Origin: an uncultured Eubacteriales bacterium
Lineage (GTDB): Bacteria; Bacillota; Clostridia; Oscillospirales; Acutalibacteraceae
Assembly (NCBI GenBank): GCA_900315715.1
Contig: ONAH01000019.1
Span: forward strand, 1 to 36,402
Direction of reading: 5' to 3'
DNA length: 36,402 bases
The position numbers and the translations under genes are program-made. The notes beneath the pieces were generated by a model, which saw only the letters and a list, made by a program, of their open reading frames with translations, did not search any database and was not told the origin of the DNA. This document shows, piece by piece, positions 5,921 through 35,941 of the stretch. The first letter of the stretch is position 1; every line of letters starts with the position of its first letter.

Positions 5921-6538
5921 TTAAGCATATCTTTGTGCAAGATCACCTATGGAACCGTCTTTTGTTCCCGAACCTACCGCATTAAACTTCCACTCTCCGG
6001 CATGTCTGTATATCTCTCCGAAAATCATCGCTGTCATTCCGCCGTAATTTTCAGTGAGGTTATATCTTAACATTTCCTGACCGTTAGCCATATTTACAAG
6101 TCTGATAAAAGCGTTGTTTATCATGCCGAAATGCTGGTTGCGGGTATATGCCTGATATATATTTACAACAATAACAACTCTGTCATACTCCGGCGGTAAT
6201 CTGTTAAGGTCGATCACGATCTGTTCGTCATCTCCGTCGCCGCCTCCTGTAAGATTATCTCCCATGTGCTTTACTGCACCTGTGAAATGTGTTAGATTGT
6301 TAAAATACACTACATCACTTTTATTTACAAGTCTGCCGTTTCTCAAAAGAATTGCAGATGCGTCACAGTCAAAATCCTGCTGACGTCCGAAAAATCCTCC
6401 GAAAAGTCCGCCGCCTGCCTGTTTTGCCTCGTCCCAGCCAAGTCCTACTACTATGCTTGACAGTCCGCCGCCTATACCGGCTGTAAGTCCAACCTTAGAA
6501 AGGCTTACTTTCTGTCCTTTTTGCAAATTTACTGACAT
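5921..6538 (-). CDS. TerD-family protein, copy 1
   Basis: A 205-residue cytoplasmic TerD-domain protein. TerD domains bind Ca2+ and belong to stress systems first seen as tellurite resistance; the biochemical role is unsettled. It begins with the family start NLQKGQKVSLSK and contains [30 protein letters not shown] (the acidic Ca2+-site segment) and the C-terminal GEIYRHAGEWKFNAVGSG. It has an extra Gly-rich segment at about residues 27-52 (GGGLFGGFFGRQQ) that the two sister copies lack. Ribosome binding site GGGAG lies 8 nt before ATG. It is the last of three TerD genes in one minus-strand operon, 16 bp after copy 2. Confidence 0.93.
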   Translation of the reverse strand: MSVNLQKGQKVSLSKVGLTAGIGGGLSSIVVGLGWDEAKQAGGGLFGGFFGRQQDFDCDASAILLRNGRLVNKSDVVYFNNLTHFTGAVKHMGDNLTGGGDGDDEQIVIDLNRLPPEYDRVVIVVNIYQAYTRNQHFGMINNAFIRLVNMANGQEMLRYNLTENYGGMTAMIFGEIYRHAGEWKFNAVGSGTKDGSIGDLAQRYA

Positions 6539-6554
6539 TTATCTCACTCCCATA

Positions 6555-7130
6555 TTATCCGACTTCTACACCGTAGCGGTCACAAAGTGCCGCAAGATTA
6601 CCCTGGTAGCCGTTTCCAATAGAATTGAATTTCCACTCGCTGTTATTCTTATACATCTCTCCGAAAACAACCGCCGTTTCTTCGGAAAAACTCTCCGCAA
6701 GATCATATCTCATTAATTCGGTATTTGTCTGTTCGTCAATAATTCGTATATATGCATTGCTTACCTGTCCAAACCCTTGTCCTCTGTCCTCTGCGTCATA
6801 TATTGTCGCTGTAAATGCTATCCTAAGAACATTTTCGGGCATAAGCATCAGGTCAACTATGATCTGTGCGTCATCACCGCTGTTTGTGGGTATATTACTC
6901 CTGTGTACTACCGCTCCCGATGTATGTGCAAGGTTTCCGTAAAATACAAAATCTCTTGAATCTGCTACTTTTCCGTTTGCACCAAGCATAAACGCCGATG
7001 CATCTATATCAAATACCTCTCTTGTATCATACGCATTTACGTCCCAGCCCATACACACGACCAGTCTTTTTATCTCGGGGCTGTCCTTTGTAAGACTTAC
7101 CTTCTGACCTTTAGCCAAATTGACCGTCAT
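6555..7130 (-). CDS. TerD-family protein, copy 2 (diverged acidic loop)
   Basis: TerD-domain protein of about 191 residues. The reading frame opens further upstream, but the start at 7130 (MTVNLAKGQKVSL) matches the family N-terminus and follows GGGAGG at the right distance. It keeps DIDASAFMLG and GEMYKNNSEWKFNSIG. The segment that in its neighbours reads [15 protein letters not shown] is changed to RSNIPTNSGDDAQI, losing several acidic or Gly positions of the presumed Ca2+ site. It is the middle gene of the TerD trio, 81 bp after copy 3. It probably forms part of the same sensing or scaffolding machinery but may have altered Ca2+ affinity. Confidence 0.92.
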   Translation of the reverse strand: MTVNLAKGQKVSLTKDSPEIKRLVVCMGWDVNAYDTREVFDIDASAFMLGANGKVADSRDFVFYGNLAHTSGAVVHRSNIPTNSGDDAQIIVDLMLMPENVLRIAFTATIYDAEDRGQGFGQVSNAYIRIIDEQTNTELMRYDLAESFSEETAVVFGEMYKNNSEWKFNSIGNGYQGNLAALCDRYGVEVG

Positions 7131-7211
7131 TATAAAAGCCTCCCAAATATATATTAACTGCACCGTCTGCACTCCCGTACAGACAGTGCTTCTTCTTTCT
7201 ATCTATATTAA

Positions 7212-7793
7212 TCAGGCTACTTCTATTCCGTAATGACCGCAAAGTGCTGCAAGTCCTCCCTGGAAACCACTGCCTATTGCGTTGAACTTCCAGTTGCCGT
7301 CACGCTTATAAATCTCACCTACTACGATAGCTGTTTCTATTGAGAAATCCTCTCCCAGATCGTAATGAATGATCTCCTGTCCTGTTACCATATCAACTAT
7401 ACGGATATAAGCGTTGGAAACCTGACCAAAGTTCTGACGTCTTAACTCTGCATCATAAATAGTAACCGTGAATGCAATTCTCTCAATATTAGCCGGAATC
7501 TTTGAGAGATCAACCATGATCTGCTCATCGTCGCCGTCGCCCGCACCTGTGAGGTTATCGCCCATATGCTCAACTGCACCGCTTGCGTGCTTGAGGTTGC
7601 CGTAGAAGATAAAGTCCTTATCTGTCGGGCAAAGTCCGTTTGCACCAAGTACAAATGCCGAAGCATCAAGGTCAAAGTCATATCCGCCGTCAAATGCGTT
7701 TACGTCCCAGCCAAGGCCTACCATAAGATTCTTTAAGCTTGGATTACCTTTTGTCAGATCTACTTTTTGTCCTTTTGAAAGATTAATTGCCAT
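7212..7793 (-). CDS. TerD-family protein, copy 3
   Basis: A 193-residue TerD-domain protein with the most canonical sequence of the three: [15 protein letters not shown] at the start, [37 protein letters not shown] and [23 protein letters not shown]. Closest in style to Bacillus YceC/YceD/YceE and to TerD/TerE. The start ATG follows GGGAGGAA. It is the first TerD gene after the TelA-family gene (33-bp gap), so the three copies and TelA are probably made from one transcript. It is expected to be cytoplasmic and Ca2+-binding. Confidence 0.94.
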
Positions 7794-34253: not shown

Positions 34254-34706
34254 TTATTCCATATCATCTGTTTTCAGAAGTTCCAATACCTTATATAACA
34301 GAACATACAAGCTTTTCGCCTCATCAGCACTCAGTTTTATGCACGAACCGACTGTCATCGGTATATCCACAGCGGCTTGCTGTAATTCCTGTCCTTTATC
34401 TGTAAGGGAAATATTCAATATTCTTTCGTCGTTAAAGCTTCTTTTTCTCTCAATATAACCTTTTGACTCAAGCTTTTTCAGCAACGGCGTAAGCGTACCC
34501 GAATTAAGGTACAGCATTTCGCCGAGTTCTTTTACGTTGCATGATTTCTTTTCCCACAGCACCATCATTGCTATATACTGAGTATATGTTAAGTCAAGTT
34601 TATCAAGATACGGTTTGTATGCGTGCACAACCTCCTTCGCACAAGCATACAGCGGAAAACAAAGCTGATTTTCAAGCCTAAGCCCGTCATAGCTTTCGTC
34701 ACTCAT
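34254..34706 (-). CDS. MarR-family regulator, OhrR type
   Basis: A 150-residue winged-helix regulator. The N-terminus LRLENQLCFPLYACAKEV closely matches OhrR proteins; the Cys in NQLCF (about residue 16) sits where OhrR has its peroxide-sensing cysteine, and the Tyr-rich LTYTQYIAMMVLWE that hydrogen-bonds it follows. The DNA-binding region is LGEMLYLNSGTLTPLLKKLESKGYI, with the wing at RKRSFNDERILNISLT. OhrR proteins repress peroxide-defence genes until oxidised by organic hydroperoxides. There is no ohr gene nearby; instead the gene lies 13 bp after a cation efflux gene and probably shares its transcript. A second Cys (about residue 22) could form a disulfide in a 2-Cys mechanism. Confidence 0.88.
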   Translation of the reverse strand: MSDESYDGLRLENQLCFPLYACAKEVVHAYKPYLDKLDLTYTQYIAMMVLWEKKSCNVKELGEMLYLNSGTLTPLLKKLESKGYIERKRSFNDERILNISLTDKGQELQQAAVDIPMTVGSCIKLSADEAKSLYVLLYKVLELLKTDDME

Positions 34707-34719
34707 TTCAAATCACTCC

Positions 34720-35823
34720 TTAATCACTGTAATCCGAGTCAAGTACAATATCCAAATTATATTCAGAAAACTTCTCTGATACCTCTTTCTTTATACTGTC
34801 ACGAACGTCATCTGCGTCTGCGTCAAAATCAACTATTATATCAAAAGAAACGCTCTTTGTATCATCGTCCGCATAAAAGCCATGCATTTGAAGCACCTCT
34901 TTATGAGCAGTCACAATCTGTTGAACAGTCTTTTTTATCTCAGCAAACCGTCCTGTATCGTTTGAGGCATATATTCCCAAAGTAAGCACTATTCCGAATT
35001 CCACAAAAACTTCGGTAGAAATTCTCCTTGTAAGCCTATGTATTTCTTTAGCAGACATACTGTCCGCAACCTCCACATGAGCCGTACCCATAATTTTAGA
35101 CGGACCGTAATTATGCAGAGTAAGGTCAAATGTACCCTTTACGCCATCAAACGAATTAATTTTCTCTTTCAGATTATCGGTAAGCTCCTTATCCGCACGA
35201 ACTCCAATAATACTGTTAAGCGTATCAGTAAGAATTTCCACACCTGATTTTATAATTATTATTGATATAAGCACGCCCATTATACCTTCAAGCGATATTC
35301 CCCATAACATGCTTACTACTGCCGTAACAAGTGTTCCGCCCGACAGTATAGCGTCGAACAATGCGTCCGCACCCGAAGCAGTAAGCGACTGAGAGTTGAG
35401 TTTTTCGCCCTGAGATTTAAAGTATTTTCCTATAATTATCTTAGCAACTATCGCCGCCGCAATAACTACAACTGACGGTACGGAATAATCTGTCTGCTGA
35501 GGTTCAAAGATTTTTACAGCAGACTCCCTAAGCGACGTTACGCCTGCAAGCAGAACAATCACAGCTATAACGACAGACGTAATATACTCTATTCTGCCGT
35601 AACCGTAGGGGTGTTTTTTGTCGGGAGCTTTAGACGAAAGCTTAGTTCCGACTATGGTTATTACTGACGAAAGTGCGTCGCTGAGATTATTCACAGCGTC
35701 AAGGATTATCGCTATTGAGTTTGCAAAAATTCCCACAACCGCCTTAAACGCCACAAGCACAACATTTGCAATAACTCCTATTATACTGGTTCTGATAATA
35801 CTTTTTTCTCTGTCGTAATTCAT
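34720..35823 (-). CDS. Cation diffusion facilitator family transporter, possibly Mn2+ type
   Basis: A 367-residue CDF exporter that would expel a divalent metal in exchange for protons. Six membrane helices fill about residues 12-200, with a cytoplasmic metal-binding domain after them. By comparison with E. coli YiiP, the transport site reads Asp-x3-Asn in helix 2 (LDAVNNLSD) and Asp-x3-Asp in helix 5 (ADALFDAIL). The His of zinc-type CDFs is replaced by Asp, as in manganese-type exporters such as MntE. HPYGYGRIEY follows helix 2 as usual. The ATG at 35823 is 8 nt after GGAG; a GTG at 35832 overlaps that site. First gene of a pair with the OhrR-like regulator, under a promoter carrying an OhrR box. 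Confidence 0.9.
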   Translation of the reverse strand: MNYDREKSIIRTSIIGVIANVVLVAFKAVVGIFANSIAIILDAVNNLSDALSSVITIVGTKLSSKAPDKKHPYGYGRIEYITSVVIAVIVLLAGVTSLRESAVKIFEPQQTDYSVPSVVVIAAAIVAKIIIGKYFKSQGEKLNSQSLTASGADALFDAILSGGTLVTAVVSMLWGISLEGIMGVLISIIIIKSGVEILTDTLNSIIGVRADKELTDNLKEKINSFDGVKGTFDLTLHNYGPSKIMGTAHVEVADSMSAKEIHRLTRRISTEVFVEFGIVLTLGIYASNDTGRFAEIKKTVQQIVTAHKEVLQMHGFYADDDTKSVSFDIIVDFDADADDVRDSIKKEVSEKFSEYNLDIVLDSDYSD

Positions 35824-35852
35824 CTTTTTCACTCCTCAACACACTATAACAC

Positions 35853-35867
35853 TACAATTAAATTGTA
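35853..35867. promoter_or_regulatory. OhrR-box-like operator
   Basis: TACAATT-A-AATTGTA, a perfect 7-bp inverted repeat with one central base, matches the operator consensus I know for Bacillus OhrR. It covers the -10 box of the CDF promoter. An overlapping second dyad (AATTGT-GT-ACAATT on the minus strand) extends it upstream. Confidence 0.75.
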
Positions 35868-35890
35868 CACAATTTCTAAAAATTTGTCAA
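35862..35890 (-). promoter_or_regulatory. Promoter of the CDF-OhrR operon
   Basis: TTGACA at 35885-35890 and TACAAT at 35862-35867 on the minus strand with a 17-bp spacer. The -10 lies inside the OhrR-like box, so a bound regulator would block RNA polymerase. Confidence 0.8.
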
Positions 35891-35912: not shown

Positions 35913-35941
35913 AAAGACGACCGCACGCAGCAGCCGCCTTT
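35913..35941 (-). terminator. Terminator upstream of the CDF promoter
   Basis: A 9-bp stem with some G-U pairs (35913-35921 and 35933-35941) and an 11-nt loop, followed on the minus strand by TTATT after the A-T closing pairs. It would end transcripts arriving from the right before the CDF promoter. Confidence 0.6.

Follow-up and report, generated by a model that had tools for sequence, protein, structure and literature searches.

Organization of the locus

The window, meaning the whole analysed stretch of 36,402 nucleotides, comes from the genome (G000) of an uncultured Eubacteriales bacterium, a gut (rumen-type) anaerobe. Near one end its minus strand carries a stem-loop, TTGACA, 17 bp, TACAAT with an overlapping dyad, a Shine–Dalgarno sequence (GAGGAG), a CDF exporter gene (cdf) and, in the same direction and 13 bp 3' of cdf, a MarR-family gene (ohrR):

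35913..35941, minus strand: terminator-like stem-loop 5' of the promoter, a pattern match only, probably the end of the preceding transcript
35885..35890, minus strand: -35 hexamer TTGACA, 17-bp spacer to the -10 (promoter 11/12 consensus match)
35862-35867, minus strand: -10 hexamer TACAAT, the first six bases of the box
35853..35867, minus strand: OhrR box TACAATT-T-AATTGTA, from pattern, Markov and matrix scans (consensus from PMC6034001)
34720..35823, minus strand: CDF cation exporter, 367 aa from ATG 35823 or 370 aa from GTG 35832
34254..34706, minus strand: OhrR-type MarR regulator, 150 aa, with Cys16 as peroxidatic and Cys122 as possible resolving Cys

ATG 35823 is the likelier cdf start because the Shine–Dalgarno sequence overlaps the GTG. 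At 5921-7793 of the window, inspection by eye suggests three TerD-like proteins in tandem and, behind them, possibly a gene cluster of the tellurite-resistance type.

An OhrR operator over the cdf promoter

The first-pass annotation had described a perfect TACAATT-N-AATTGTA dyad over the -10 box of the cdf promoter and had likened it to the Bacillus OhrR operator, and both statements held. The dyad, TACAATTTAATTGTA at 35853-35867, was recovered by pattern search with 0 mismatches, is identical to the published B. subtilis OhrR operator consensus TACAATTNAATTGTA (PMC6034001), and covers the -10 of TTGACA-17 bp-TACAAT, which fits the promoter consensus better than any other site in the region (11/12). 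TTGACA at identical spacing was present in 13 of the 17 boxed promoters listed.

TACAAT is a common -10 variant and provides part of the dyad, so a palindrome arising by chance at an A/T-rich -10 box had to be weighed, but we consider this extremely improbable. A first-order Markov model of the window predicts only 0.0007 perfect dyads in its 36 kb and about 0.00001 within the 400-bp intergenic stretch, and the cdf–ohrR dyad is the single perfect site that a pattern search found in the 2.25-Mb assembly. Allowing up to one mismatch, the host genome holds five boxes versus none for the reversed pattern; across 80 loci there were 13 boxes versus one site for five permuted palindromes pooled, and counts in congeners likewise far exceeded the reversed-pattern control. 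When the window was scored with a weight matrix built from boxes elsewhere, nearly all from gpx-type loci, the cdf–ohrR box came first at 23.4 bits (runner-up, 12.6), and the highest score over 40 simulated windows was 18.2 bits. The box is also kept at the orthologous promoter of a congener (G012) despite diverged flanks. Chance was rejected on the Markov expectation, the permuted controls and the matrix rank.

The regulator is of the OhrR type

Pfam and NCBIfam both place the regulator in the MarR family, and its best specific NCBIfam model is NF052638 (OhrR), at 174.8 bits against a curated cut-off of 200. Among PDB structures it is closest to B. subtilis OhrR (1z91, E 1e-41), with Cys16 at the position of Cys15, bearing out the earlier identification of the second gene as an OhrR-like MarR regulator with the sensing Cys in place. 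We aligned 120 sequences, the window protein and its relatives, with B. subtilis OhrR (121 in all); the B. subtilis sequence used matches the 1z91 chain save for the Cys-to-Ser change of the crystallised form. Cys16, Tyr20, Tyr30 and Tyr41 (B. subtilis Cys15, Tyr19, Tyr29 and Tyr40) were invariant in all 121, so that the regulator keeps every OhrR sensing residue tested, though the relatives were chosen by similarity and invariance supports the function without proving it. A further residue, Cys122, is present in 112 of the 121 and lies, in an ungapped alignment, one residue from the column of Xanthomonas Cys127, the resolving Cys of a 2-Cys OhrR (PMC5201249). The conserved Cys122 may point to 2-Cys sensing.

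A MarR protein adjoining a metal exporter could instead be an AdcR/ZitR-type metal sensor, making this an ordinary metal-induced exporter, and the AdcR-family model does match weakly. That match, however, stops at 28 bits, well short of its 175-bit cut-off, while the OhrR model scores 175 bits; the operator, which matches the OhrR consensus, recurs at gpx-trx promoters. AdcR zinc sites are His-rich, and the single histidine of this regulator is too few for such sites. We regard metal sensing by the regulator as very unlikely and set it aside on the low AdcR score and the lone histidine. The host genome also encodes two members of the Fur family and one protein of the DtxR/MntR type.

The transporter may export manganese and/or iron

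The OhrR-type regulator is paired with a protein that has Cation_efflux and ZT_dimer domains, six TM helices and the CDF fold, and whose Foldseek matches include YiiP, ZnT3, ZnT4, ZnT8 and the Mn exporter SLC30A10. The predicted structure (mean pLDDT 80, pTM 0.54) contains a second C-terminal domain, alpha-beta-beta-alpha-beta, at about residues 290-368. This extra domain (window 34720-34960, minus strand) resembles a second copy of the dimerisation domain and is kept across the clade.

The transport site comprises N48, D52, D156 and D160 (ND-DD), which is, with DD-DD, one of the two site types of MntE/MneS-type Mn exporters; NDDD occurs in 39 of 40 clade members, and the second CDF that these genomes encode has HDHD. 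The protein scores 93.6 bits against the MntE equivalog cut-off of 500 and hence is not filed as MntE. The first-pass annotation had read manganese from these residues. The residues themselves are as described, but Asn-Asp-Asp-Asp cannot separate Mn from Fe(II), and manganese is too narrow a label because B. subtilis MneS, which has an ND-DD site, exports both Mn and Fe (PMC9993123). The predicted cargo may be Mn and/or Fe(II).

A shared box over gpx-trxA-trxB and no Ohr detected

We detected a one-mismatch box, TACAATCTAATTGTA, elsewhere in the host genome (G000:C137:10980-10994), over the promoter of an operon for glutathione peroxidase, thioredoxin and thioredoxin reductase (gpx-trxA-trxB) that shares the TTGACA-17-TACAAT layout with cdf–ohrR. 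Because the genome has just one close OhrR-type gene, the cdf-linked one (the next MarR match is at E 3e-7), that OhrR likely regulates both operons. Other one-mismatch boxes, on C9 (L002), C35 and C39, were unsupported as regulon members; the C9 box is kept in G012 but lacks a good -35.

A search of the host genome and 21 congeners for OsmC/Ohr genes (PF02566) gave no hit; a linked ohr/OsmC gene is the common setting of OhrR but does not define the protein. Among 80 regulator relatives from other genomes, counted by hand from a locus listing, the flanks held gpx in 41, often behind the same promoter and dyad, thioredoxin and/or thioredoxin reductase without gpx in a further 8, and a CDF gene in 7, and the box sits over the gpx and ohrR operons of many. 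With no Ohr found and gpx a common neighbour, this OhrR branch is tied to Gpx and not to Ohr, and its wider regulon would be Gpx/thioredoxin instead of the ohr genes that OhrR normally controls. TSCPD genes or Gpx-TSCPD fusions are also frequent near the relatives; the fusions adjoin OhrR at L087:3130-3954 and at L083, L088 and L091, and elsewhere the two are separate adjacent genes.

Distribution of the cdf–ohrR pairing

Within the genus, cdf–ohrR with gpx-trx-trxB elsewhere occurs in G000, G012 and G021; gpx-TSCPD-cdf-ohrR in G015; TSCPD-cdf-ohrR in G002 and G008; and in G019, G017, G006, G003 and G009 the order is gpx-trx-trxB-ohrR and cdf is not linked. Nearly all of these operons have the box in front. 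Exporter and peroxidase are united in single operons at L033 (gpx-TSCPD-cdf-ohrR) and L087 (gpx-(gpx-TSCPD)-ohrR-cdf). Inspection of orthologous cdf–ohrR pairs for the dyad, proposed in the first-pass annotation, found it in two congeneric operons, giving 0, 0 and 2 mismatches with the host included. When cdf is internal, the box lies ahead of gpx or TSCPD with 2-3 mismatches, and weak boxes with 3 mismatches occur in the cdf operons of G002 (the weakest) and L037. Upstream of gpx, a box with at most 3 mismatches was present at 11 of 12 congeneric loci. By raw counts that ignore shared ancestry, 13 of 16 genus genomes with OhrR have gpx and 11 of 16 have the NDDD CDF, versus 0 of 6 for each among genomes without OhrR.

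Several further boxes were seen in congeners. In G012, the promoter TTGACA-17-TACAATCTAATTGTA is repeated near contig ends L232, L233 and L240 (C22, C74 and C37), and an OhrR-like box alone lies near the contig ends of C86, C88 and C89; this repeated element carries the box, and the gene downstream is unassembled. In G007 (83% complete), a perfect box over a TTGACA-17-TACAAT promoter precedes trx-trxB (L236:903-917, on C257), and OhrR was not detected in that genome. In G021, a perfect box (L234:960-974; C79:8759-8773) lies just 5' of a small ORF with a good Shine–Dalgarno sequence.

Among 245 genomes of the class, 27 have the clade CDF, 42 a close OhrR and 21 both, so that OhrR is present in 21 of 27 CDF genomes versus 21 of 218 others (odds ratio 33, shared ancestry ignored). 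The two genes lie close together in only 2 of the 27, the host and G233, the latter with a 621-bp gap. The scan for boxes upstream of CDF genes that had been suggested was positive at congeneric cdf–ohrR operons and negative at the unlinked CDF relatives examined, even one of 61% identity. The rarity of linkage and the boxless unlinked genes point to local regulatory recruitment of the exporter and not to a property of the CDF clade, and OhrR control of the whole clade was rejected on the unlinked relatives examined.

This narrow pairing and these boxless relatives also fit a reading in which OhrR represses the operon while the exporter is a passenger, left from a gpx-TSCPD-cdf-ohrR operon and without a role in peroxide defence. 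In other bacteria ohrR regulates itself (PMC10294975), so that a box at the head of its operon is to be expected. We judge the passenger reading possible but rather doubtful. In G000 and G012, whose gpx is at another site, cdf has stayed with ohrR and the box is perfect, and CDF and OhrR co-occur even when unlinked. The CDF tree needs three linkage changes, of which at least two are forced by well-supported branches, and both cdf-ohrR and ohrR-cdf orders occur; the forced changes and differing order imply that the pairing arose, or was retained, on more than one occasion.

Proposed mechanism

We favour a functional role for the exporter and estimate at roughly 0.8 the probability that OhrR keeps a Mn/Fe exporter repressed until peroxide induces it alongside gpx-trxA-trxB. 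Gene order, the box and its overlap with the promoter, the conserved sensor and transport-site residues and the box shared with gpx are observed; from them we infer binding, derepression, the inducer, the metal and the physiological benefit. In this model cdf and ohrR would form one autoregulated operon, with a reduced OhrR dimer on the dyad over the -10 blocking RNA polymerase. A peroxide, probably organic, would oxidise Cys16, and a disulfide, either mixed or with Cys122 in the partner subunit, would release the repressor and allow transcription. The same OhrR would act in trans on the distant gpx-trxA-trxB operon, so that peroxide would induce both its own removal, by a thioredoxin-fed glutathione peroxidase, and a CDF exporter that would bring down Fe(II) and/or Mn(II) in the cytosol. 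Less Fe(II) would limit Fenton chemistry; alternatively, the benefit may be Fe/Mn rebalancing. We rest the benefit on Fe or Fe/Mn balance because Mn-only export under peroxide stress is hard to justify. The hydroperoxide-induced metal exporter first proposed for this locus is thus strengthened by the perfect box, the sensor residues and the box shared with gpx-trxA-trxB, with the metal widened to include Fe(II) and with binding and induction kept as predictions.

Relation to known systems

The host system shares its repressor family, Cys/Tyr sensing residues and operator TACAATTNAATTGTA with B. subtilis OhrR-ohrA, but its targets would be a CDF exporter and gpx-trx-trxB, without an ohr gene; a further difference is the second Cys of its regulator, which is conserved and lies close to where Xanthomonas OhrR has Cys127. 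P. aeruginosa OspR, a two-Cys OhrR homologue controlling a glutathione peroxidase gene (PMC4999210), is a precedent for a non-ohr target, gpx, as in the host, though OspR-gpx is a proteobacterial system with another operator and no metal exporter. Peroxide-inducible metal export is itself already known: B. subtilis PfeT is an Fe exporter derepressed by peroxide through PerR/Fur (PMC9993123), the same physiological idea, although that system uses a Fur-family metal-dependent sensor and a P1B4 ATPase in place of a thiol-based OhrR and a CDF. MntE, MneS and MneP have the CDF fold in common with the host exporter, and MneS its ND-DD site and export of Mn and Fe, but they are under MntR and respond to Mn (PMC9993123, PMC6391924), and the host CDF has the additional C-terminal alpha-beta domain.

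No relevant account of OhrR together with CDF, MntE or Ruminococcus came up in the literature searched, most of it open-access papers. An OhrR-type thiol sensor apparently placed over a CDF exporter, without ohr, is new as far as that literature goes. A review (PMC10294975) cites one genome-wide OhrR regulon, which is small and ohr-centred.

At about even odds, we suggest more broadly that in Ohr-less strict anaerobes a 2-Cys OhrR runs Gpx/thioredoxin together with CDF-mediated Fe(II)/Mn(II) export, as a thiol-based counterpart of PerR-PfeT assembled more than once. The numerous clostridial genes annotated as MarR next to gpx would gain a concrete role and an operator. A metal exporter in the OhrR regulon, if true, would directly couple organic-peroxide sensing to Fe/Mn balance in anaerobes, which presumably contain much free Fe(II) and meet oxygen suddenly.
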